Positions 3,476-64,000 of a stretch of DNA of 64,000 nucleotides are shown here, in pieces. The stretch is from assembly GCF_003234795.2 (NCBI RefSeq), contig NZ_CP126268.1:3534001-3598000 (forward strand), in the 5' to 3' direction. This DNA is from Curtobacterium sp. MCLR17_032. GTDB lineage: Bacteria; Actinomycetota; Actinomycetes; Actinomycetales; Microbacteriaceae. The notes beneath the pieces are model-generated. The model was not told where the DNA came from. It was given only the letters and a program-made list of their open reading frames with translations, and did not search any database. How positions within the stretch are numbered: position 1 is the stretch's first letter; each line of letters starts with the position of its first letter. The position numbers were made by a program, and so were the translations under genes.

Positions 3476-3515
3476 CGTCGTCCGGATGATGTTCGCGGCG
3501 TTCGCTTGCCGACCC

Positions 3516-3541
3516 ATACCGAGTATGTGCATACTCGGTAT
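3516..3541. promoter_or_regulatory. 26-bp perfect palindrome, likely PadR operator
   Basis: Two 12-base arms (ATACCGAGTATG and its exact complement) are separated by TG. The site lies 38 bases upstream of the padR-like gene that heads an ABC transporter operon. PadR regulators commonly autoregulate through such dyads, so this is the expected operator position. Binding itself is inferred. Confidence 0.7.
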
Positions 3542-3579
3542 GCCCGCGGGGAAGTGCTCCGCCGGGTCGAGGGGGAACG

Positions 3580-4182
3580 ATGAGCGTTCGCATGGGCGTA
3601 CTCGCACTGCTGGTGGCCGAGCCGGGCTACGGCTACCAGCTCCGGGGGGAGTTCGAGCACCGCACGGGGGGCAGCTGGCCGCTGAACATCGGCCAGGTCT
3701 ACACGACGCTCGACCGGTTGGAGCGCGACGGCCTCGTGGCCCGCGGCGACGCCGACGACGACGGACACGTCGTCTACACGGCGACCGACGCGGGACGCGA
3801 GGCGGTCGACCGGTGGTTCAGCGAACCGGTGCCCGCCAAGCGCGGCCGCGACGAGTTGGCGATCAAGTTCGCCATCGCGGTGACCGTGCCCGGCGTGGAC
3901 GTGCAGCGCCTCGTGCAGGTGCAGCGGACGGCGGCGGTCCGGGCGCTGCAGGACCTGACCCGACTCAAGCGCACCACGGACCCCGAGACGGAGCTGGCGT
4001 GGTCGCTCGTCCTCGAGTCGATGGTGTTCCAGGCCGAGTCCGAGGTGCGGTGGCTCGACCACGTCGAATCGAGCGTCGCGCGGTACCGACCCGCTCCCCG
4101 GGCGAGCGCCGACACCCCGGACGACGAGGACGTGTACGGCAGCGAGCCCACCGGCCGCCGCGGCACGGGTGTCGTCCGATGA
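3580..4182 (+). CDS. PadR-family transcriptional regulator
   Basis: 200 residues. The N-terminal winged helix (residues 1-75: GVLALLVAEPGYGYQL, then LNIGQVYTTLDRLERDGLV) is diagnostic for PadR, and a C-terminal helical dimerisation domain (PadR_C-like, about 95-160) follows. Its stop overlaps the start of the ABC ATPase by 4 bases. With the palindrome at 3516 this indicates an autoregulated operon in which the regulator senses a compound handled by the transporter. The C-terminal 30 residues are acidic and look disordered. Confidence 0.9.
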   Translation: MSVRMGVLALLVAEPGYGYQLRGEFEHRTGGSWPLNIGQVYTTLDRLERDGLVARGDADDDGHVVYTATDAGREAVDRWFSEPVPAKRGRDELAIKFAIAVTVPGVDVQRLVQVQRTAAVRALQDLTRLKRTTDPETELAWSLVLESMVFQAESEVRWLDHVESSVARYRPAPRASADTPDDEDVYGSEPTGRRGTGVVR

Positions 4183-4910
4183 GCACGATGGCGCTCCTCG
4201 AACTCGACGCCGTCGCCGTGCAGTACGGCAGCGGCGCGCAGGCCGTGACCGCCCTGGCCGGTGTCGACCTGACGATCCGTCCCGGTGAGATGGTCGCCGT
4301 GATGGGCACCTCCGGCTCCGGGAAGTCGACGCTGCTGTCGGTCGCCGGCACCCTGATGCCCCCGACGAGCGGCGAGGTCCGCATCGACGGCGAATGGGTG
4401 TCAGACCGCCCGGCCCGCGAACTCGCAGCGCTGCGGCGACGCGTGCTCGGCTTCGTGTTCCAGGACTTCAACCTCATCCCCTCGCTGACCGCGGTCGAGA
4501 ACGTGGCGCTGCCGCTGGAGCTCGACGGCTGGCGCACCGGACGTGCACGGAAGGCGGCGGAGCTGGCGCTCGAGAGCGTCGAACTCGGCCACCGGCTGGA
4601 CGCCTGGCCGGACGACCTCTCCGGCGGGCAGCGGCAGCGGGTCGCCATCGCCCGCGGGGTCGTCGGCGACCGCAAGCTCGTCCTCGCCGACGAACCGACC
4701 GGGGCCCTCGACTCGCAGACCGGCGAGGTCGTGCTCCGCATGCTCCGCCGACACGTCGACTCCGGTGCCGGTGCACTGCTCGTCACGCACGACGCCCGGC
4801 ACGCTGCGTGGGCGGACCGGATCGTGTTCCTCCGCGACGGCCGCATCGTCGACGAGACCGTGTACGCCGGCGTCGAGCTGGCCCTGACCGACGCGCAGGA
4901 CCACCCGTGA
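4179..4910 (+). CDS. ABC transporter ATP-binding protein (MacB/LolD type)
   Basis: 243 residues. Walker A is GTSGSGKST at 43-51, the Q-loop glutamine is near 95, the signature LSGGQ is at 147-151 and Walker B VLADEP at 168-173. The sequence GFVFQDFNLIPSLTAVENVALPLEL is typical of ATPases that pair with FtsX/MacB-type permeases. Start and stop overlap the neighbours by 4 bases on both sides, so it is translated with the regulator and permease. Expected role: energising export or lipid/peptide handling at the membrane. Confidence 0.93.
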   Translation: MSTMALLELDAVAVQYGSGAQAVTALAGVDLTIRPGEMVAVMGTSGSGKSTLLSVAGTLMPPTSGEVRIDGEWVSDRPARELAALRRRVLGFVFQDFNLIPSLTAVENVALPLELDGWRTGRARKAAELALESVELGHRLDAWPDDLSGGQRQRVAIARGVVGDRKLVLADEPTGALDSQTGEVVLRMLRRHVDSGAGALLVTHDARHAAWADRIVFLRDGRIVDETVYAGVELALTDAQDHP

Positions 4911-12792: not shown

Positions 12793-14325
12793 GTGAAGCA
12801 CACTCAAGGGGAACTCGGATCGACGCCGAAGACGGCGCGCTCCCGGGTCAAGGTCGGATTCATCGGGATCGTGACAGCCACGATCGCTCTGGTGGGGGCG
12901 GTGGGGCTCGCCACACCGGCCCTCGCCGCACAGCCCGGACAGAACACGGGCGGCGGGCCCTCCACGGCGGCCAACGACGCCATCGCCTACGCGGAGAGCA
13001 TGTGGAGCACGAGCGACGGCGGCCAGAACAACAGCACCTACTACGCACTCGGCGGCAACGGCCCCAGCGCATGGGACTGCTCGGGCCTGGTCTGGAAGTC
13101 GTACCTCCAGGCCGGCATCGACCTGTCGAACGGTGCGTCCCGCCCGGTCGTCGGTGACGAGTACAACGCGTTGAAGAGCAACCTCGTGTCCCGGGCGAAC
13201 GCGGAGCCCGGCGACATCCTGTTCTGGACGAGCACCGGCACCACCGGCGGCGACTTCCTCCACGACGGCATCTACCTCGGCAACGGGTACATGGTCGCAG
13301 CGGCCGCTCCGGGCGAAGGCGTCAAGGAGCAGACGCTCTGGTCGGAACCCGGTGAGCAGCTCCTCGACGTCGTCGGGCGACCGACCGGTTCGCTGAGCGG
13401 CTCGGGCTCGGGCGGCAGCGCCGTGAAGACCACGACCTACGTCACCGCTGCACAGGTCAACACCGGCAAGCTCTGGAGTGTCACGGCGGGCAACGCAGCG
13501 ACCGCCTACCCGGTGGGCGTCGCTGCGGGAACCAGCCCGGCGATCGCCACCCTCGGCGGCGGCAAGTACGTGACCGCGTTCCAGGCTGCGGGCGGTGCGC
13601 TCTGGACCGTCGATTCGGGCGGAGCGGCGACGTCGTTCCCGGTCGGCATGAAGGCCGGCACGAGCCCGTCGATCATCCCCACCTCCGGCGGTGGGTACGT
13701 CGTGGCGGTGCAGACCAACACGGGCAAGCTCTGGACGATCACGAACACGAAGGCAGCGACCGCGTTCGACATCGGCATGGCGGCCGGGACGAGTCCCTCG
13801 ATCGCGGCTGTCGGCAGCGGCTACGTCGTCGCCGTCCAGACGAACACCGGTGACCTGTGGAGCGTCACGAACACCAAGGCCGCGACGTCGTTCGGCGTCG
13901 GGATGCAGGACGGCACCAGCCCGTCGATCACTGCCACCGCGAACGGTGGCTACGTCATCGCCGCGCAGACGAACACCGGTGCGCTGTGGAGCGTGACGAA
14001 CACGAAGGCCGCAACCGCCTTCCCGATCGGCATGCAGGACGGCACCAGCCCGTCGATCCTCGCGCTCTCGAACGGCGGCTACGTCATCGCTGCGCAGACG
14101 AACACCGGCAAGCTGTGGACGATCACGAACGGCAAGGCAGCGACGGCGTTCGACATCGGCATGGCATCGGGCACCAGCCCGGCCATCGCCGCGGTCGGCA
14201 GCGGTTACGTCGTGGCGGTCCAGACGAACGGCAACGACCTCTGGACGGTCACGAACGACAACGCCGCAACCTCGTTCAACGTGGGCATGAAGGCAGGAAC
14301 GAGCCCCGCGATCCTCGCCCAGTAG
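12793..14325 (+). CDS. Secreted NlpC/P60 hydrolase with C-terminal repeats
   Basis: 510 residues from GTG 12793; an ATG at 12727 with a GGAGCGGG site would add 22 residues, so the start is uncertain. The Sec signal ends in TPALAA (about residue 46). The NlpC/P60 domain (about 55-185) has the catalytic Cys in AWDCSGLVW (C96) and His in FLHDGIYLGNG (H157), so it should cut peptide stems of peptidoglycan. From about 210 to the end there are about seven 43-residue repeats built on YVVAVQTNTGKLWTITNTK and IGMAAGTSPSI. These probably form a beta-propeller-like binding module for the wall or a glycan. Confidence 0.87.
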   Translation: MKHTQGELGSTPKTARSRVKVGFIGIVTATIALVGAVGLATPALAAQPGQNTGGGPSTAANDAIAYAESMWSTSDGGQNNSTYYALGGNGPSAWDCSGLVWKSYLQAGIDLSNGASRPVVGDEYNALKSNLVSRANAEPGDILFWTSTGTTGGDFLHDGIYLGNGYMVAAAAPGEGVKEQTLWSEPGEQLLDVVGRPTGSLSGSGSGGSAVKTTTYVTAAQVNTGKLWSVTAGNAATAYPVGVAAGTSPAIATLGGGKYVTAFQAAGGALWTVDSGGAATSFPVGMKAGTSPSIIPTSGGGYVVAVQTNTGKLWTITNTKAATAFDIGMAAGTSPSIAAVGSGYVVAVQTNTGDLWSVTNTKAATSFGVGMQDGTSPSITATANGGYVIAAQTNTGALWSVTNTKAATAFPIGMQDGTSPSILALSNGGYVIAAQTNTGKLWTITNGKAATAFDIGMASGTSPAIAAVGSGYVVAVQTNGNDLWTVTNDNAATSFNVGMKAGTSPAILAQ

Positions 14326-14340
14326 TCCGTCCTGCCCGAT

Positions 14341-14378
14341 CAGGAGCACCCCGCACCACCCGGTGCGGGGTGCTCCTG
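14341..14378. terminator. Hairpin after NlpC/P60 gene
   Basis: Perfect 16-base arms (CAGGAGCACCCCGCAC) with a 6-base loop. It starts 15 bases after the stop codon. Confidence 0.8.
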
Positions 14379-14434
14379 CACGAGGTACGGACGTGACCTC
14401 CCTCGTGTGGTCGTCTGCGCCTACCGTCGTGGAG

Positions 14435-15673
14435 GTGACACCACAGACCCCGAACCCGTCCGGACCGCACGGCATGACGACCGGCCGTACCCTCCTGTTC
14501 GCCGTCGGCGGTGGCGCCGCGGTCGGGAACCTGTACTGGGCCCAGCCGCTGCTCGACGAGATCGCCGCGGACCTGCACGCTTCGTCGTCGCTGGCCGGGT
14601 TGCTCGTCACCGTGACGCAGGTCGGGTACGCACTGGGGATCCTCCTGGTCGTCCCCCTCGGTGACGTCCTGGACCGTCGGCGTCTGGTCCCCGGGGTGCT
14701 CGTCGCGTCGGCCGTCGCGCTGCTGCTCGCCTCGGTCGCACCCTCGTTCGGCGTGCTGCTCGGTGCCCTCGGCCTGGTCGGGCTGACGACCGTCGCAGGG
14801 CAGCTGCTCACGCCACTCGCCGGCGACCTGGCCGACCCGGCCGCCCGAGGTCGTGTGGTCGGCACCGTGGCGTCCGGCATGCTCACCGGCATCCTGGTGT
14901 CGCGGACGGTCAGCGGGCTCGTGGCCCAGGTGGCCGGCTGGCGCGCGATCTACGTCGTCGCCGCGGTCGCCGCCCTCGTGCTCGCAGTCCTGCTGCGCCG
15001 AGCGATCCCCCACCTCGACCGTCGCGACCGCGTGCCGTACCCACAGCTCATCGGGTCGGTGTTCCGTGCGGTCGCGCACCACCGGTCGGTGCAGGTGACC
15101 CTGGTGCTCGGCGCGTCGGCGTTCGCGGTGTTCACGATGTTCTGGACGGCGCTGACGTTCCTGCTGAGCGCTCCGCCGTTCGGGTACTCCCCTGCCGCGA
15201 TCGGCCTCGTCGGGCTGGCCGGGCTCACCGGGGCTGTCGCTGCCCAGCGTGTCGGACGTCTGCACGACCGCGGGCTGTCGGTGCCGGTGACCGGGACGGC
15301 GCTCGCGCTCGGGCTCCTGTCACTGGTCGTCGCCGGGCTCGGAGCGCGGTCGATCGTGGTGGTCCTCGTCGCAGTGGTCCTGCTGGACGTCGGAGTGCAG
15401 GCGGCGAACGTGCTCAACCAGACCCGGCTGTTCGCGATCGACCCGGCAGCCCGGAGTCGGCTCAACACGGCCTTCGTGACCGGGAACTTCATCGGGGGCG
15501 CCGTCGGTTCCGCGCTGGCCTCGGTGCTCTGGGGGCTCGGCGGGTGGACAGCGGTCACGATCGGTGGAGCCGTCCTGTTCGGGTTCGCCTTGACGGTGTG
15601 GGCAGTCCACCGCCGCGGGGCACTCGCGCCGCCAGGTGGTGGTGACGCCGCGGCGGCAGCCGGGAGGCCCTGA
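14435..15673 (+). CDS. MFS transporter
   Basis: 412 residues with about 12 hydrophobic segments. The loop between helices 2 and 3 reads PLGDVLDRRRLVPG, the MFS motif A. NLYWAQPLLDEIAADL near the N-terminus is typical of the EmrB-unrelated 12-helix drug and sugar efflux group. GTG 14435 lies 7 bases after TACCGT, so a leaderless start is preferred; an ATG 13 codons further in is possible. Likely a proton-driven efflux pump; substrate unknown. Confidence 0.87.
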   Translation: MTPQTPNPSGPHGMTTGRTLLFAVGGGAAVGNLYWAQPLLDEIAADLHASSSLAGLLVTVTQVGYALGILLVVPLGDVLDRRRLVPGVLVASAVALLLASVAPSFGVLLGALGLVGLTTVAGQLLTPLAGDLADPAARGRVVGTVASGMLTGILVSRTVSGLVAQVAGWRAIYVVAAVAALVLAVLLRRAIPHLDRRDRVPYPQLIGSVFRAVAHHRSVQVTLVLGASAFAVFTMFWTALTFLLSAPPFGYSPAAIGLVGLAGLTGAVAAQRVGRLHDRGLSVPVTGTALALGLLSLVVAGLGARSIVVVLVAVVLLDVGVQAANVLNQTRLFAIDPAARSRLNTAFVTGNFIGGAVGSALASVLWGLGGWTAVTIGGAVLFGFALTVWAVHRRGALAPPGGGDAAAAAGRP

Positions 15674-56515: not shown

Positions 56516-57505
56516 CTAGCTCGAGATATCTGGTGCTATCGCTCGCTCGTGCGGGGTAGCGGCGTGTTCCAGGTCAGAGTCGAGCGCTTGCGCGTCGTTC
56601 CAAATGGCGGTGAGCCTCGCGATCGCGGCGTCAACGGCATCCTCCGTGGCGCCGAGCTCGGCGTAGGTCTCCTGCAGTGTGAGCGCGTCGAATCGTGAGG
56701 GCTGTCGCGCGATCGCGCCGACGGCTTCCGCGATTGGGCCGTCCGCAGCTTGAGCACGTCGTGTCGGGATGATGCTCGTCATGGACCGACCTGACAGACT
56801 CACCCCGGTGCGCGCCCACCCGTGGACGTCTAACGGCAACAGCAGCTGCTCCGCTCGGCGCCACTCCCCCGGTACCGGCTGTGCGCAGTCGTGCTGGTCG
56901 AGGTTCCCTTTCGTCGGGTCGAGCAGGCGGATGACGTCGCCGCGGAATCCGGTCCAGACGGGTCCGGCGATGCGCAGCCACCGGGTCACCGCGCAGGCAG
57001 CACAGGACACCGGGTCATCGGATGAGGGCACGACGTGTCCGCGGATCCGGACGATGCTCGTCACCGCGACGTCGGCAGGGGTGATGGTGCGGGCTTGTTC
57101 GCGGGTCAGGTGGAGGACCCCGAGGAGGACGATGAGGAAGGCATCGCGGCGGCCGCGGAGCCCGATCGGGTACCGGTACTTGGGGATCGCCGCGAGTACC
57201 TCTTCGACGGCCGCTTGGTCGGGGGCTTCTGGTCGCGGCCACACCCGCGCCTCCACCGTGGGTATCGGGTCCGGGAGACCGGCTGCGATGTGGTGTGCGC
57301 GGATCGCGCGCCGGCGGAGCCGCTGTGTCGACGCGCTGCCGGGGAACAGCGTCAGGAACTGTCCGATCGTGGCTGCCGTCGTCGGAAGCGACTCGTGACC
57401 TGCCGCCTCACACCACGCGACGAACCGACCCCAGTGCGCCTCGAGCAGAGCCTCGCTGTTGGGCCCGAGTTTGGGGTCGAGTTTGGGGGAAGTTTGGGGG
57501 GTCAC
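56516..57505 (-). CDS. Degenerate tyrosine-recombinase paralogue
   Basis: 329 residues from GTG, overlapping the integrase stop by 4 bases. N-terminal core-binding domain-like helices (about 18-80) are followed by a catalytic-domain start (YPIGLRGRRDAFLIVLLGVLHLTREQARTITPADV, with R135 as box I arginine). The CAAC pair matches the CAPC of the integrase. The H-x-x-R and catalytic tyrosine of the C-terminus are absent. It is therefore likely an inactive partner that helps recombination or DNA binding. Its N-terminus is coded by three GTTTGGGG-like repeats (57465-57500). Confidence 0.65.
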   Translation of the reverse strand: MTPQTSPKLDPKLGPNSEALLEAHWGRFVAWCEAAGHESLPTTAATIGQFLTLFPGSASTQRLRRRAIRAHHIAAGLPDPIPTVEARVWPRPEAPDQAAVEEVLAAIPKYRYPIGLRGRRDAFLIVLLGVLHLTREQARTITPADVAVTSIVRIRGHVVPSSDDPVSCAACAVTRWLRIAGPVWTGFRGDVIRLLDPTKGNLDQHDCAQPVPGEWRRAEQLLLPLDVHGWARTGVSLSGRSMTSIIPTRRAQAADGPIAEAVGAIARQPSRFDALTLQETYAELGATEDAVDAAIARLTAIWNDAQALDSDLEHAATPHERAIAPDISS

Positions 57506-58776
57506 AAGCGCATCCGGGTGACGGCGTTGCGGACCAGGGGTGCGTATTCGCGGTCGTAGATCTGCAGGGTGGCGGCGTTGGTGTGGTGGGTCTGGTTCAT
57601 GATCTCCACATCCGTCGCGCCGGCGTTGCGTGCTTCGGTGACGAACCCTGCGCGCAGGGAGTGCCCGGACCAACCGTCCTCCCCCAACCCGGCCGCGAGC
57701 GCGCGGCGGGCGACGGCTTTCCCGACCGTCGTCGGACTGATACCGGTGTTCCGGAACAAGCCCCACTTCGACACGGCGCGGAAGAACGGCGTCGACGGCG
57801 GCAACCGGTCGGTTCCGAGTCCGTCGGCGCAGACGTGCACGGCGAGACTCGCGCCGGTGAGCGTGGCGAAGAGGCCCGCTTCCCCGCGGGCGTCCTGCGC
57901 GGCCATGAGCCGGGACAGTCGCACGTAGGCGCAGGGGGCGCAGGTGACTGGGTTCGCGCCCTGCTGCAGCACCTTGATCCGGCCGAGGCCGTCCTGGTCG
58001 GTCTTGGACTTCCGCACGCGGGCGTAGACGCCCTCGCCGTCGACGAGGCGAAGATCGTCGACGGTGAGGGCGGTGAGTTCGGACTCGCGGAACGCGCCGA
58101 CAAACCCGAACAGCAGCAACGCCTGATCGCGGGTTCCGAGCGCGCCGGTCTGCAGGTCGGCGACGTCGATCTTCAGCAGCGTCGTCTGCAGCGCCTTCAA
58201 CGTCATCGGCTTCGCCCGCCGCACCGGCACGGACCGGGTCCGGCGGATGCCCTTCAGGACATCGCGGACGATCGGCGTGGAGCCGGGTGGGGTGTGGCCG
58301 CGGCGGGCGTGCTCCCAGTCGATCGCGGCGACGTACCGGCTGATCGTCGCCGGCGCGTACCGCTGCCCGCCATCGGGGAGGACCGCGTTGGCCTTGTCCG
58401 CGAGGAACGCTGCAACCTCGGCCGGATCGACCGGTGCGGTGGTGATCTGCTCGAGCTCGTGCGGTTCGGAGATCTCGTGGTCGAGGAACCCCGCACGCCA
58501 CCGGGCGAACTGTCGCAGGTCCGAACGGTACGCGCGGATCGTGTTCGGCGACAGGGACGCCTCGGCGAAAACCCGCGGCGACGCGTCCGCCGGCACCACC
58601 ACGGCCCCCAACTCGGCAGGATGCCCCTCCCCCGCTGCGGTGCGGAACCGCGCGAACGCCGTCCGGGACCGCTCCGCAGCGGCACGCTCCTCAGCAGACG
58701 CACCGCGACCAACGGAGCGAACGCCCCGCGAGCTCGTCGCGACGCCCGCCCTATCCGTCTCGCTCACGTCGTCCAC
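57502..58776 (-). CDS. Tyrosine-type site-specific integrase
   Basis: 424 residues. SAM-like core-binding domain about 70-160 (SLSPNTIRAYRSDLRQFARW). The catalytic set is complete: R230 (GAFRESELTAL), K256/258, H372 and R375 (HSLRAGF), H397/398 and Y407 (IYDRE). GTG 58776 with GAAGG. Mobilises or maintains the surrounding island. Region 58777-59166 upstream has no gene I can support; an AT-richer stretch near 58827-58860 may be part of its attachment site. Confidence 0.9.
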   Translation of the reverse strand: MDDVSETDRAGVATSSRGVRSVGRGASAEERAAAERSRTAFARFRTAAGEGHPAELGAVVVPADASPRVFAEASLSPNTIRAYRSDLRQFARWRAGFLDHEISEPHELEQITTAPVDPAEVAAFLADKANAVLPDGGQRYAPATISRYVAAIDWEHARRGHTPPGSTPIVRDVLKGIRRTRSVPVRRAKPMTLKALQTTLLKIDVADLQTGALGTRDQALLLFGFVGAFRESELTALTVDDLRLVDGEGVYARVRKSKTDQDGLGRIKVLQQGANPVTCAPCAYVRLSRLMAAQDARGEAGLFATLTGASLAVHVCADGLGTDRLPPSTPFFRAVSKWGLFRNTGISPTTVGKAVARRALAAGLGEDGWSGHSLRAGFVTEARNAGATDVEIMNQTHHTNAATLQIYDREYAPLVRNAVTRMRL

Positions 58777-59166
58777 GTGCCTTCGTCTCTGCCGGCGACG
58801 GCACTGTGCACGCCTGCCGGGTCAGTTCCGATAATAGCGATTCTCGGATGATTACGGCGTGGGTGGAAGCGCCGAGGGCTGGTGGCATGAACCAAGGGGA
58901 GTGCATGCGGCAAGCCCGTGAGTGGTCAGCTTCGGATCGGGTGACGATGTTCCCTTGAGGGCCGTCGGCTGCGCGGGCCTGATCTGGTTCATTTCCGGAG
59001 CGCTCCACCACCTCGTGCCGAGACACCTGGCAAGGAGTACTGCCGCACAAGGCGCCGGCACCCACTCAAGCCACGGTGGAAATGGTTTGCGTCTCGTGCC
59101 GTACGTTCTCTACCGACGAGCACGACTGCCCTTCTGCTTCCGCGCAGATCACCAGAGGTCTCGGAC

Positions 59167-59418
59167 CCGATCGGGCTCCGCGGCCGCCGCGACGCCTTCC
59201 TCATCCTCCTCCTCGGGGTCCTCCACCTCACCCGCGAACAAGCCCGCACCATCACCCCTGCCGACGTCGCGGTGACGAGCATCATCCGGATCCGCGGCCA
59301 CGTCGTGCCCTCAACGGACGACCCGGAGTCCTGTGCCGCCTGCGCGGTGACCCGGTGGCTGCGCATCGCCAGACCCGTCCGGACCGGATCCAGCGGCGAC
59401 GTCACCCGCTATGAATAG
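59167..59418 (+). pseudogene. Inverted fragment of the recombinase paralogue
   Basis: Codes for 83 residues homologous to residues 113-195 of the protein at 56516; 71 of the first 79 match by my reading (PIGLRGRRDAFLILLLGVLH onwards). It has no start and ends in a chance TAG. It is on the opposite strand, giving a long inverted repeat with 56930-57168. Region 59419-59773 downstream has no gene I can support. Confidence 0.85.
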
Positions 59419-59773: not shown

Positions 59774-60754
59774 CTAGTCGGCATCAGCGTCCCTCGCAGC
59801 CCCGAAAACATACTGATAGAGGCTCGCCCTTTTTACAAACCCCAGAGATTCATTCAACCGGAGGATCGGCTCGTTTGTGGTCCGATTCACCGTCACTAGA
59901 TATTTCGACGCAGGACTCCGGCTCCGCAGAAGCGCTGTATTGCTACTCTTCAAGCCAGACGCCCAACCCTGCCTGCGATATTCAGGTCGAACGAGCGTCA
60001 CGCCCTGTGTGGCTTCGACAGGGTCACTTTTTTTGACGCTAATCCGAGAGTGCCCAATCAATTCACCGTTGCCACTTAGAGCTACAGATACAAACATCGT
60101 TTTACCTAACGCGGCAGCCTGCGCCTCGGCCCGCCGATAAGCCACGACAACTTCATCTGATCCGACGCGTTTAGATCCGAAACCCGATGCCACCAAAGGT
60201 GCGTACTGCGCAACTAACTCTTCGGGGCAGGCGCCCTCCCACGAGACAATCTCACCGCAAGGAGCCTGCACAGCCGCCTCTTTGAGCGACGCGAGGTCCA
60301 ACGACTGCTCAGCACTTACCCCCTCGAGCAGGAAACCCGTTCCGGCTGCAAGAGCGGAGGCGGGTTTATCGATGACATCCGGAACCCGATGCTGTGCGAA
60401 CAGTCTTGTCACTCCGAGGGATGCACTTGTAGCAATGATCTGATGCGTGAGCGCCTTTCCTGCCCCCTTCCCTCGCGCGGATGGTACAACTCCGACGCGA
60501 GCATGCCCAGTCGCAGTAGAGAAATGCTCTGGGTACACGTAACCGACACCGACCGGCTCTCCTCCCAAGTAGGCGATATAGACCCGAGCGTTGGTATCCG
60601 GCCCTCGAAGATGGTCATTAAGGATGTCAGGGCTGTCTTCTGCGGCACTTTTCCATAGCCCTGAGGTGGCCGCTAATTCCCACCACTCGGAGAACGCGCT
60701 ACTGTCCACCAGAACCTTATAACCGCGTCCGTTCAGGGCTTGACGAACTGACAT
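59774..60754 (-). CDS. Double-domain GNAT acetyltransferase
   Basis: 326 residues with two GNAT folds. The first has the acetyl-CoA loop VGVVPSARGKGAGKAL (about 88-103); the second has VRPEYRRQGWASGLKSSN (about 254-271) with ILRLNESLGFVKR after it. Such tandem GNATs acylate amines on small molecules or peptides. It starts 22 bases inside the end of the methyltransferase gene and has a GAGAGGCAGGG site, so it is the last gene of the peptide operon. Lower GC than the left half. Confidence 0.85.
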   Translation of the reverse strand: MSVRQALNGRGYKVLVDSSAFSEWWELAATSGLWKSAAEDSPDILNDHLRGPDTNARVYIAYLGGEPVGVGYVYPEHFSTATGHARVGVVPSARGKGAGKALTHQIIATSASLGVTRLFAQHRVPDVIDKPASALAAGTGFLLEGVSAEQSLDLASLKEAAVQAPCGEIVSWEGACPEELVAQYAPLVASGFGSKRVGSDEVVVAYRRAEAQAAALGKTMFVSVALSGNGELIGHSRISVKKSDPVEATQGVTLVRPEYRRQGWASGLKSSNTALLRSRSPASKYLVTVNRTTNEPILRLNESLGFVKRASLYQYVFGAARDADAD

Positions 60755-61710
60755 CCCTGCCTCTCTAACCGTTGGAGAAGCGGCATGTGGTCGAGCCGTT
60801 CGAGAAATTCATCAACTGCTCGCGTCGCGCCTGCCCACTTCCCATAATCGTCAATTATAACCACGCCACCAGTTACCACGCGAGGATACAACACTTCGAG
60901 CTCAACCTTGGTCGAATCATACAGGTCCGTATCAAGGTGAAGAATTGCGATTTGGGCTGGCGTAGTCTGCTGAAGAGTTTCCTGCACGAATCCAGCAATG
61001 AGTCGAAGTCGCGATTCGGGCAAGCTCCCCTCGAGGAGATATGACCTTACTGATGCAAGTGAAACCAGCCCGTCCGACGCGTCACCAAATTCCTCCGCTA
61101 CTTGGAGATCGACGTCGGGATTTGTGATGAGGTGGTCGTCAGTGGTTGGAGGTTCCCAAGTGGCGGAGAAAGTGTCGTATCCCCACAATGATCGATGAGA
61201 TGTAGGGCCGAGCGCTTCCGCCATCGCTCTAAGCCATCCCCCACGCCACACCCCGCACTCGACGACGTCCCCTCCCAGCGTATTGGCGTTGACATACTCA
61301 AGTGCGCGAATCGATGCCAGAATTGTTGCGGGAGTAACGTAAGTTCGTTCCTGCACGCGCTGGAACAGATAAGCAACGTCTGGTCGCGTAATGGCTATGT
61401 CGAGGTAGGGTGCCGACCGCTCGGCCGGCAACCAGTCCGCGTTGCGGTTTTGGCTGTTACCGGGTCTGTCGGGCACGTCGGTATGCCGTCGAACCAATAT
61501 TCCTGCCGCTTCGAGCTGAGCGACGTGATTATCAGCGTCGTCCGGTACGTCTTCCTGAGGGCGGTCGACGTCCACGACATCGAGCATGGTCCGAACGGCT
61601 TCGGTTGTCATTTCGACAGTCGTGAAAGGGTCGTCGGTGAAACCTGCCACAAATTGGTTGTCTACCGCCTGAAGGAAGACTCGCGGGGAGATGCTTGGTC
61701 GTTCAGACAC
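60733..61710 (-). CDS. TylF/MycF-like methyltransferase with PqqD-like N-terminus
   Basis: 325 residues from GTG, overlapping the cupin stop by 8 bases. The C-terminal part is a TylF/MycF-type methyltransferase: GGDVVECGVWRGG (147-158) binds SAM, and LHLDTDLYDSTKVELEVLYP with VIIDDYGKWAG (about 258-294) holds the metal-binding aspartates. Residues 8-75 (VFLQAVDNQFVAGF, then a helix MTTEAVRTMLDVV, then HVAQLEAAGILV) look like the strand and winged-helix order of a PqqD-type RiPP recognition element. That domain reading is an inference. It would bind the 33-residue peptide encoded upstream and methylate it. Confidence 0.78.
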   Translation of the reverse strand: MSERPSISPRVFLQAVDNQFVAGFTDDPFTTVEMTTEAVRTMLDVVDVDRPQEDVPDDADNHVAQLEAAGILVRRHTDVPDRPGNSQNRNADWLPAERSAPYLDIAITRPDVAYLFQRVQERTYVTPATILASIRALEYVNANTLGGDVVECGVWRGGWLRAMAEALGPTSHRSLWGYDTFSATWEPPTTDDHLITNPDVDLQVAEEFGDASDGLVSLASVRSYLLEGSLPESRLRLIAGFVQETLQQTTPAQIAILHLDTDLYDSTKVELEVLYPRVVTGGVVIIDDYGKWAGATRAVDEFLERLDHMPLLQRLERQGCQFVKP

Positions 61711-62776
61711 GCGCAGGCAGGAGTCCGAGGGCGCCGAGTGCGGTGTCGAGCTCGACCTGAAGATCGCCAAGTTCGAGTAGTCCTGCGTATGCGCGTCCGA
61801 GCGCCGCCTGTCCGTCGCCATCGTGGGCTATCTCCGCCAGAGCTTCAAGCAGAACAGCTCGCTCGACGTTTGCCCAGAGCAGCCCAGCGAGCATCTGCGC
61901 TTCGTCGTCCTCGCCAGCGAACGTTCCTCCAAAGGTGGAACGCTTCACTAGTGCTGCCCTACCCCTCGTGAGTTGTGTGAGGACTTCGTCGTGCTGGTGC
62001 AGACCGGCGAGAGCGCCGTCCAGGGCGTCCGGGTGCGCCACAGCAGCTCCAACGAAGGCCGCGACCTTCTGCGATGCGCTTCCGGAACGAAAAACTTCGG
62101 TCATCGCTTCAACGTAGATACCTTCGTCCGCTTGAGCCAGCAGGTCGAGCGCCTCGGTACGTCGCTTTACGAGGGAGTCCTGCAGGCGCAGCGGGTCCAC
62201 GATGCGAAGCCCAGGCCATAGATAGTCGGCGGGTCGGCGAGTGACTCCCGGGTGCTCGTTGCAGCGAACCACTATGGTTACGCTGGGCGTATCGAGCCAG
62301 TAGATGTCGTGAATGAGGTCCGGCTGAATTTCTGCAGCTTCGCCTTCCCGCATGAAGTGGAAATCATGAACATTGAGCTGTCCGACGGTGATGTCCGCGT
62401 CCTCCGCGGAAACGCCGTCGAACGAATACCGAGTGTGCAAGCGGTCGCCGAGCAACGCACCGAATGAACCGCAAGTCACGTGATCGTGTACCGGTGCTGC
62501 TTTTTGCATCCAAAAGAGAAGGTCGATTCGGAGCAGGTCGTTACGCGCCACCGTGATAGCAGGTTCGCCGAAGTCGAAGTTCCAACCTTGAACCGGCAAC
62601 TCCTTTGTACCGATCGACCACGCCAGGAAATCGCCTGGATCGAACTCTGATCGAGCCATGAAGGCTTGCAGGTGCTCGTTCGAGATGGCGCCGAGCGCAT
62701 CATGCTTATTCCCTGTGGAGTTATAAGCAGATAGGATCTTTTCAGCGAGCTGCGAGAAAGCCTCAATATGCGACAA
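61703..62776 (-). CDS. Cupin-fold oxygenase-like protein
   Basis: 357 residues from a TTG with AGGAG seven bases upstream; no ATG or GTG fits. The cupin core has PVHDHVTCGSFGALLGDRLHTRY (H97, H99 ligands) and IHDIYWLDTPSVTIVV (H156), like thiol-dioxygenase-type cupins. The N-terminal 90 residues and the helical last 150 residues are unassigned. Lying between the peptide and the methyltransferase, it is a good candidate for oxidising a residue of the peptide. Confidence 0.75.
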   Translation of the reverse strand: MSHIEAFSQLAEKILSAYNSTGNKHDALGAISNEHLQAFMARSEFDPGDFLAWSIGTKELPVQGWNFDFGEPAITVARNDLLRIDLLFWMQKAAPVHDHVTCGSFGALLGDRLHTRYSFDGVSAEDADITVGQLNVHDFHFMREGEAAEIQPDLIHDIYWLDTPSVTIVVRCNEHPGVTRRPADYLWPGLRIVDPLRLQDSLVKRRTEALDLLAQADEGIYVEAMTEVFRSGSASQKVAAFVGAAVAHPDALDGALAGLHQHDEVLTQLTRGRAALVKRSTFGGTFAGEDDEAQMLAGLLWANVERAVLLEALAEIAHDGDGQAALGRAYAGLLELGDLQVELDTALGALGLLPARV

Positions 62777-62814
62777 GTCAACACTCCTTACATTTGGATG
62801 GAACAGTGTGGGAC

Positions 62815-62852
62815 AATGTGGAGCGGGGCACGGTATCGCCCCGCTCCACATT
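62815..62852 (-). promoter_or_regulatory. Hairpin between peptide and enzyme genes
   Basis: 15-base perfect arms (AATGTGGAGCGGGGC) and an 8-base loop, starting 5 bases after the peptide stop. Such leaky terminators raise precursor over enzyme expression in RiPP operons. Confidence 0.7.
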
Positions 62853-62856
62853 GGCG

Positions 62857-62958
62857 TCAGAACAGCTTCACTGGCTCCTTCGCCGATGCCTTGTCGACCT
62901 TCTTCACGACGATCTTGAAGGCCTTTTTCGGCTGCGACTTCTGCTTGTCGTTCTTCAT
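62857..62958 (-). CDS. 33-residue lysine-rich peptide, candidate RiPP precursor
   Basis: Short ORF with a strong site (GGAAGGGAA, 8 bases before ATG). The product has 11 lysines, 2 Asp, 1 Glu, no Cys and one central hydrophobic patch (AFKIVVKKVDK), and ends EPVKLF. It has no signal peptide or membrane helix. It sits between an MFS exporter and three putative modifying enzymes and is followed at once by a strong hairpin, the usual layout for a precursor gene. Assignment as precursor is by context; no known family is recognised. Confidence 0.65.
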   Translation of the reverse strand: MKNDKQKSQPKKAFKIVVKKVDKASAKEPVKLF

Positions 62959-62976
62959 GATAGTTCCCTTCCTTTA

Positions 62977-62997
62977 TTCCAGGCGGTTTGCCTGGAA
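62977..62997 (-). other. Small hairpin between exporter and peptide genes
   Basis: 8-base perfect arms TTCCAGGC/GCCTGGAA with a 5-base loop, directly after the MFS stop and 18 bases before the peptide start. It could be a processing site or protect the peptide mRNA. Confidence 0.45.
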
Positions 62998-62999
62998 GC

Positions 63000-64000
63000 C
63001 TATAGTGATGCTTTCCGCAGCGACCGGTTACACCACCCGATAATGGCCGATATGCCGAGTACCGCCGCGCAGAGCGCGATTCCAAGCTCGACGCCGGTCT
63101 TTGCGATGAAGGCGCCAAGAAAGACGGTGCTGAGGCCGAGGAGGGCCGTCTGCACCAGCGCCTGGGTCGATTGCACCCGCCCCATGAGCGCGTATGGCAC
63201 GGAGCGCACCAACGGCGCACCGTGCGCGATGTAGAGCCCTTGTCCTAGGCCCGCCACTGCACAACCGATGAAGGCACTGATTTGGCCATCAACGGCAAGC
63301 ACGGAAAAGCCCACCGCAGCAAGGGAGACTCCTGCGAGAGCCCAGGCGCCCAAATGTTTGGAAGCACCCCGGATACTGACAACTAGGGCTACCAACATTG
63401 TGATACCGGAGATTGTCGCGAGTAGGGCCCCCGCCCCTACGCTTCCCATGGCGCGTTCTCGAGCGACAAGCGGCACGAGAAGGGTGGACAACGGGAGGAG
63501 GAACCCGGCTACGGCGCCAGTCAGCGCGACGACTGAACGAAGCAGTCGATCGCGGGCAACAAACGTCAGCCCCTCAGCGATGGACTGAAAGGCGCCCACG
63601 GTGCGCTTTTGGGGACGCGGGAGATGCACCTGAAGGAACAGGAGTACTGCGAACACCACGAGATACGTTGCAGCATTCATGACGGATGCCAAAGCGAGCC
63701 CGCCAACGGTGACAATCACGCCGCCGACGAGCCGGCCACCAATGCTCGCGAGCTGCCCCACAACTTGCCGGAGCGAAAGAGCCCGCGCAAATCCCTGCTT
63801 TGAAACAAGCTGACGGGTCATGGTCGCGGAGGACGGCGTGTAGAACGCAGTCTCAAGGCCCAGCGCGACCGCAAAGACTACAAGCCAGACGGGGTTCAGT
63901 GCGTGAAACCAGCCAACAATTGCAGCTCCGATTGCAACAAGAAACATGATCGCAGTGGAGACCAGCATGACCTGACGCGGTCGCAGACGGTCAGAGAGAG
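63000..64000 (-). CDS. MFS exporter, N-terminus beyond window
   Basis: At least 333 residues, continuing past the right edge: the frame is open to 64000 and reads LSDRLRPRQVMLVS, the MFS motif A after helix 2. About ten helices are visible. VFAVALGLETAFYTPSSATMTRQLV and GAFQSIAEGLTFV are typical of the MFS_3 / enterobactin-exporter-like group. Upstream of the peptide gene by 41 bases; likely exports the mature product or confers resistance. Confidence 0.88.
   Translation of the reverse strand, partial: LSDRLRPRQVMLVSTAIMFLVAIGAAIVGWFHALNPVWLVVFAVALGLETAFYTPSSATMTRQLVSKQGFARALSLRQVVGQLASIGGRLVGGVIVTVGGLALASVMNAATYLVVFAVLLFLQVHLPRPQKRTVGAFQSIAEGLTFVARDRLLRSVVALTGAVAGFLLPLSTLLVPLVARERAMGSVGAGALLATISGITMLVALVVSIRGASKHLGAWALAGVSLAAVGFSVLAVDGQISAFIGCAVAGLGQGLYIAHGAPLVRSVPYALMGRVQSTQALVQTALLGLSTVFLGAFIAKTGVELGIALCAAVLGISAIIGWCNRSLRKASL

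Follow-up and report, generated by a model that had tools for sequence, protein, structure and literature searches.

A five-gene run on the minus strand

We analyzed a stretch of 64,000 nucleotides from Curtobacterium sp. MCLR17_032 (contig NZ_CP126268.1, positions 3,534,001 to 3,598,000 of the forward strand), hereafter referred to as the window. Between positions 59774 and 64000 of this stretch, the minus strand carries in a single run the genes for an exporter of the MFS family, a 33-residue lysine-rich peptide, a cupin-like open reading frame (ORF), a TylF-type methyltransferase, and a double GNAT acetyltransferase. The five-gene set extends over approximately 4.5 kb and all five frames are open. 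Our leading interpretation, which remains tentative and falls short of probable, is that the set is an acquired operon akin to those of ribosomally synthesized and post-translationally modified peptides (RiPPs), with the 33-residue peptide as candidate precursor.

The 3' part of the exporter gene occupies positions 63000-64000, the full ORF of 426 residues running past the window (positions 3501-4781 of locus L002). It is followed on the minus strand by the 33-codon gene (62857-62958), the cupin-like ORF (61703-62776), the methyltransferase gene (60733-61710), and the gene for the double GNAT protein of 326 residues (59774-60754). A first-pass annotation of this DNA had assigned all genes to the minus strand, with 41 bases between the exporter and peptide genes and overlaps of 8 and 22 bases between the enzyme genes. 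The strand is borne out for the five frames, the 41-base gap is exact, and so is the 22-base overlap, the methyltransferase frame ending at 60733 and the GNAT frame starting at ATG 60754. The overlap between the cupin-like ORF and the methyltransferase gene depends on the start codon of the latter, being 8 bases with GTG 61710 and 119 bases with ATG 61821. Apart from this one overlap, the description was confirmed as accurate.

Two start codons required a choice. The listed start of the methyltransferase, ATG 61821 (362 residues), has GGAG ten bases upstream, and GTG 61710 has no clear ribosome site. We provisionally prefer GTG 61710 because the additional 37 codons opened by ATG 61821 reach into the end part of the cupin frame. 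The latter frame contains no stop codon as far back as GTG 63220 (505 residues); TTG 62776, which has AAGGAG seven bases upstream, is the likely start and yields a protein of 357 residues.

The 33-codon gene is probably translated

The peptide encoded by the 33-codon gene, MKNDKQKSQPKKAFKIVVKKVDKASAKEPVKLF, contains 11 lysine residues and has a net charge of +8, with no cysteine, two serines, and no threonine. Its ATG is preceded by the ribosome-binding-type sequence AAGGAAGGG (62966-62974, minus strand). Window-wide, a strong ribosome-site word precedes 8 of the 232 ATG-started frames of 25-60 residues, any of four words being accepted and the four having been picked after sight of the 33-codon gene. 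The numbers of G or C at codon positions 1, 2, and 3 are 15, 7, and 30 of 33, respectively, and the third-position value was reached by none of 200,000 permutations of the bases. The codon-position pattern and the permutation result indicate that the gene is probably translated. The third-position G+C content of the neighboring genes of the operon is 0.57-0.67, so the 33-codon gene stands out within the operon. The earlier description of a short lysine-rich ORF with a strong ribosome site, encoding a peptide devoid of cysteine and not rich in serine or threonine, holds in both respects. A short peptide gene lies here beside enzymes of modifying type, as in a RiPP operon, and the peptide may act as the precursor. 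Searches with the peptide alone covered plasmids, the genome of the strain itself, and the retrieved loci; the single match in the genome was the peptide itself, and no relative was found in plasmids.

The composition of the peptide bears on another explanation, according to which it is secreted unmodified, in the manner of a leaderless bacteriocin, and is accompanied by its exporter and by self-protection enzymes. The net charge, the small size, and the location of the exporter gene directly upstream are in agreement with this proposal. However, leaderless bacteriocins of the aureocin A53 type are rich in both tryptophan and lysine, whereas large hydrophobic residues are few in this peptide (two Phe, one Leu, and no Trp), and three enzymes would be superfluous. 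We consider this explanation to be quite unlikely.

The peptide gene is bracketed by two hairpins. The upstream hairpin, missed by the first-pass annotation, is a perfect 8-bp stem with a loop of 5 bases (62977-62997, minus strand; -13.6 kcal/mol) located between the exporter stop codon and the ribosome site of the peptide gene. The downstream hairpin (62814-62853, minus strand), which had been reported, lies between the peptide gene and the cupin-like ORF and comprises 17 pairs, 16 of the Watson-Crick type and one G-U pair beside the 6-base loop (-34.7 kcal/mol in a 56-base fold). None of 200 shuffled sequences folded equally well, either for a 95-base stretch containing the downstream hairpin (z = -4.2) or for a 253-base stretch of this region (z = -5.1). 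The downstream hairpin is not followed by a run of T residues and thus does not qualify as a canonical intrinsic terminator; a role in message protection or in partial control of read-through would fit better than standard termination. No Rfam family reached its gathering score on this hairpin; matches to mir-4018 on both of its strands (23 and 22.5 bits for a gathering score of 66) were deemed to be due to chance. The minimum-energy and centroid folds were used to assess a role as translational attenuator. The downstream hairpin leaves the ribosome site of the cupin-like ORF uncovered in the former, and a weaker hairpin located further down touches this site.

Enzymes and exporter encoded by the run

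Three of the proteins belong to established families. The double GNAT protein matched Pfam family PF00583 (Acetyltransf_1) in two stretches (52.8 bits for a cut-off of 20.7; E = 5.8e-14). The part of the exporter encoded in the window exceeded the Pfam cut-off for MFS_1 (E = 4.6e-17) as well as for MFS_3 (E = 9.1e-11) and scored 83.5 bits with NCBIfam TIGR00900, below the cut-off of 319.6. The methyltransferase matched Pfam family TylF (PF05711) with 110.6 bits (cut-off of 23; E = 1e-31) over residues 135-304, corresponding to positions 82-245 of the 264 positions of the profile. Its relatives in the PDB include NovP and mycinamicin III 3''-O-methyltransferase.

The methyltransferase contains an extra N-terminal domain, of approximately residues 1-80. 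The core of the enzyme is common, with matches, in samples that share genomes, in 7 of 299 genomes of the family and 49 of 376 genomes of the phylum, the Curtobacterium genome included. The N-terminal domain was aligned in a single one of the 54 relatives recovered by the genome scan, that of Nocardia africana (locus L041), from residue 8; the alignments of the other relatives begin at residue 60 or later, and their N-termini are short or different by eye. The alignment with the N. africana protein covers residues 8-323 with 35% identity, the N-terminal domains being 25% identical. Twelve of 98 Nocardia genomes matched the methyltransferase, the best match being the same N. africana genome, listed from residue 64 in this search and extended to residue 8 by tblastn.

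The cupin-like ORF had no match in Pfam (E ≤ 10), family PF05995 included, in NCBIfam, or in the PDB. A model was built from 15 proteins out of 19 loci matching PF05995, following elimination of one locus without a frame and of three wrong frames; one of the 15 proteins (L167) scored under the Pfam cut-off. The ORF scored 11.4 bits against this model, compared with 4.5 bits for the best of 200 shuffled sequences. Residues H98, H100, and H157 (numbered as in P0002, in which the TTG codon is residue 2) aligned with the conserved histidine positions of cupins of the cysteine-dioxygenase type. In cysteine dioxygenase (CDO), the conserved histidines are the metal ligands. The ORF is a likely candidate for a three-histidine cupin. 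The peptide contains no cysteine, which rules it out as thiol substrate of a cysteine-dioxygenase reaction. An AlphaFold model of the ORF made from its sequence alone had a predicted local distance difference test (pLDDT) score of 38 and was not used. The first-pass annotation regarded the three enzymes as able to oxidize, methylate, and acylate: the profile matches bear out the methylating and acylating types, whereas the match to an oxidizing type is weak.

The operon lies on an island that was probably acquired

From the GNAT gene to the exporter gene, the G+C content is 56-62% in 1-kb windows, compared with 68-74% beyond the first 9 kb of L002. To the left of the operon, a recombinase-like ORF (57502-58776), recognized by reading of the sequence and not by a profile search, is flanked by the two copies of a 245-bp inverted repeat that are 94% identical (56927-57171 and 59165-59409). 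On the other side, an element of the IS3 type (an insertion sequence; L002 5001-6265) lies directly upstream of the exporter gene, has its best plasmid matches in Curtobacterium, and may affect the promoter of the operon itself. Twenty-two of the 37 plasmid records matching the stretch were from Curtobacterium, with a best identity of 89%. The deviant base composition, the recombinase-like ORF, the inverted repeat, the IS3-type element, and the plasmid matches indicate that the island was probably acquired horizontally. Elsewhere in L002, three small ORFs in succession (14074-15576) encode lipoprotein-like products of 161-174 residues; they are alike by eye and appear to be tandem duplicates.

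Relatives of the operon are scarce. Operon DNA matched 3 of 66 genomes of the genus, at full length in the genome of the strain itself and over 28-62 bases in the two others. In overlapping samples of genomes, the cupin-like ORF matched 3 of 299 genomes of the family (its own and two weak matches), 1 of 394 genomes of the class (its own), and, at E ≤ 0.01, 8 of 396 genomes of the phylum (its own and seven at 16-21 bits). The two weak family matches (E of 6-7e-4) and the seven phylum matches cover only parts of the query and were taken as chance, the frames having been inspected for L095 alone. No relative of the cupin-like ORF was found in plasmids, phages, and viral contigs, in a scan of genome contigs restricted to six exact 8-residue words, or in the genome of N. 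africana (search of 13 genomes devoid of a positive control).

This distribution raised the possibility that the short ORF does not represent a gene and that what remains of the operon is decaying on a mobile island. The peptide has no relatives in plasmids, the matches of operon DNA in the other 65 genomes of the genus are at most 28-62 bases long, and a recombinase-like sequence, an inverted repeat, and an insertion sequence surround the operon. Against this stand the codon-position pattern, the ribosome site, and the five open frames, and we regard this explanation as very improbable.

A possible RiPP-like operon or a cassette for tailoring of a small molecule

No scaffold-making enzyme was recognized among the five proteins of the operon with Pfam and NCBIfam, the cupin-like ORF matching nothing. 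This makes the peptide the natural substrate and leads to the RiPP-like interpretation, in which every catalytic, binding, and transport step is one that we infer. The 33-residue basic peptide would be made in excess over the enzymes, owing to the two hairpins bracketing the message, which are proposed to protect it and to limit read-through. Its middle stretch, FKIVVKKV, would bind in the form of a strand to the N-terminal domain of the methyltransferase. Residues in the C-terminal part, ASAKEPVKLF, would be oxidized by the cupin-like metal enzyme, and the methyltransferase would methylate residues of the same part or the carboxylate of the peptide. A protease encoded elsewhere would trim the peptide, and the MFS protein would export the product. 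Acetylation by the double GNAT protein could act either on the product, as a tailoring reaction, or on its intracellular form, for self-protection. The compact run of genes, the translation signature, the ribosome site, the two hairpins, the three-histidine pattern, and the TylF enzyme bearing an N-terminal domain support this interpretation in part.

The proposed docking step raises the question of the nature of the N-terminal domain; the first-pass annotation had suggested a search of residues 1-80 for a RiPP recognition element (RRE). Residues 6-72 look PqqD-like by eye. In a two-sequence AlphaFold model of the domain (mean pLDDT of 66), three strands are followed by two helices and then by a short strand, and the order strand-strand-strand-helix-helix is that of the topology of PqqD-like domains. 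The N-terminal domain of the N. africana protein scored 1.4 bits against a PqqD model made from three sequences, a value matched by 57 of 500 shuffled sequences. In a Foldseek search with the AlphaFold model, TbiB1, an RRE with its leader peptide, ranked 11th (E = 0.49) in a list of otherwise unrelated folds. According to the RRE-Finder paper (PMC7470986), PF05402 lacks most RREs other than those of a few classes, so the failure to match this family is compatible with an RRE.

Several results weigh against the RiPP-like interpretation. For the N-terminal domain of the Curtobacterium enzyme, support for an RRE was obtained neither from Pfam and NCBIfam (no match at E ≤ 10) nor from a PDB profile search (no match), hhalign against one PqqD (probability of 1.8%), the three-sequence PqqD model (-1.0 bits, matched by 203 of 500 shuffled sequences), or Foldseek (nothing at E ≤ 0.001). 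For the cupin-like ORF, hhalign against the CDO set gave a probability of 2.3%. No protease was recognized in the operon. No second copy of the operon was found in searches of genomes, plasmids, phages, and viral contigs, leaving no relative in which co-conservation of its genes could be seen. In N. africana (L041 4565-12311), the TylF enzyme with the N-terminal domain is encoded beside three acyl-CoA dehydrogenases, two FabA-like proteins, and an acyltransferase. A filtered scan of this locus (frames of 18-80 residues with a ribosome-site word and little gene overlap) returned three short frames, none of which was lysine-rich. The neighborhood and the scan together speak against a peptide-specific role of the domain. 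Finally, of seven relatives of the GNAT protein found on plasmids, we inspected two, and both are encoded beside cytochrome P450, flavin adenine dinucleotide (FAD) enzymes, and acyl-CoA carboxylase; no precursor peptide was visible at these two loci.

The same neighborhoods favor an alternative in which the substrate of the cupin, TylF, and GNAT enzymes is not a peptide but a compound that is either taken up or synthesized elsewhere and is exported by the MFS protein. The short gene would then be a leader or encode a small accessory protein controlling enzyme expression. Several solved TylF relatives bear the names of antibiotic- or sugar-modifying enzymes, the relative of the N-terminal domain belongs to a locus of fatty-acyl or polyketide-like type, the two inspected GNAT relatives have the neighbors described above, and the exporter matches drug-efflux models, though far below their cut-offs. 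Because the N-terminal domain relative and the two examined GNAT relatives, of seven, are found in such loci, this alternative is nearly as good as a RiPP-like operon, and we treat it as a substantial possibility, itself below even likelihood. It is weakened by the strong hairpin, which leaves the ribosome site of the cupin-like ORF free in the minimum-energy fold, by the lack of a recognized scaffold-making gene in the operon, and by the codon bias of the short gene, which a regulatory leader does not need.

A bolder version of the RiPP-like interpretation is that the operon represents a new class, with a leader-core peptide lacking cysteine and containing few serines and threonines, an uncatalogued three-histidine cupin, a TylF enzyme with a built-in leader-binding domain, and self-protection by the GNAT protein. 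We consider this version doubtful. The new peptide class inferred in the first-pass annotation likewise stays a hypothesis, to which conservation lends no support. If true, TylF enzymes would act on ribosomal peptides, beyond small molecules and sugars, and a RiPP pathway would have been assembled from a TylF methyltransferase and an uncatalogued three-histidine cupin. To our knowledge, neither type of enzyme is known to act on ribosomal peptides. In the open-licence literature, subscription papers being mostly outside the scope, no link was found between TylF, cupin, and precursor peptide in RiPPs or between cysteine dioxygenase, RiPP, and precursor peptide; TylF, RiPP, and either precursor peptide or methyltransferase came together only in a paper on a Streptomyces promoter.

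Comparison with known systems

The N. africana locus shares with the Curtobacterium operon a TylF enzyme with the N-terminal domain but differs by its acyl-type neighbors and by the lack of a visible precursor in the locus. As an observation in its own right, this locus resembles an uncharacterized acyl-chain pathway.

Plasmid pTM1 of Tistrella mobilis, which came up incidentally as one of three plasmid records in a search for PqqD, carries consecutive genes (L172 9882-14863) for a TylF enzyme, a CmcI-type methyltransferase, PqqD, an O-GlcNAc-transferase-type protein, and ORFs of 48 and 50 residues, together with a protein weakly similar to HPr kinase (below the cut-offs). The likeness to the Curtobacterium operon resides in a TylF gene in one run with short ORFs. 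The differences are that PqqD is a separate protein (Pfam E = 2.6e-13), that the TylF enzyme has no such N-terminal domain (residues 5-274 of its 275 fall within the Pfam match), that the short ORFs are not lysine-rich, and that the HPr-kinase-like and O-GlcNAc-transferase-type genes replace the cupin and GNAT genes. No lasso cyclase was present among the annotated features in 24 kb around the pTM1 locus. The 48- and 50-residue ORFs have in common a W-V-x-P-V-A stretch, and the locus may be devoted to peptide modification. By analogy, pTM1 could provide a loose precedent for the association of a TylF enzyme with peptides.

The Microcin C operon resembles the present one in that a hairpin lies behind a short peptide gene and in that it encodes an MFS exporter and an acetyltransferase, the latter serving self-immunity in Microcin C producers. 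In contrast to the Microcin C operon, of which the MccB-type ThiF adenylyltransferase is the hallmark, no ThiF-type adenylyltransferase was matched here with Pfam and NCBIfam, the peptide does not end in Asn, and the other enzymes differ.

Among RiPPs, the pbs/biphenomycin-like systems, as described in PMC12257519, combine a cupin-like hydroxylase acting on the precursor, an RRE-containing partner, and an MFS transporter encoded in the cluster. The term methyltransferase is absent from that text. Their clusters include a multinuclear non-heme iron-dependent oxidative enzyme (MNIO), a B12-dependent radical S-adenosylmethionine enzyme (B12-rSAM), and an arginase, and their cupin is related to JmjC, whereas a three-histidine type is suggested for the Curtobacterium operon (PMC12257519 for the former).

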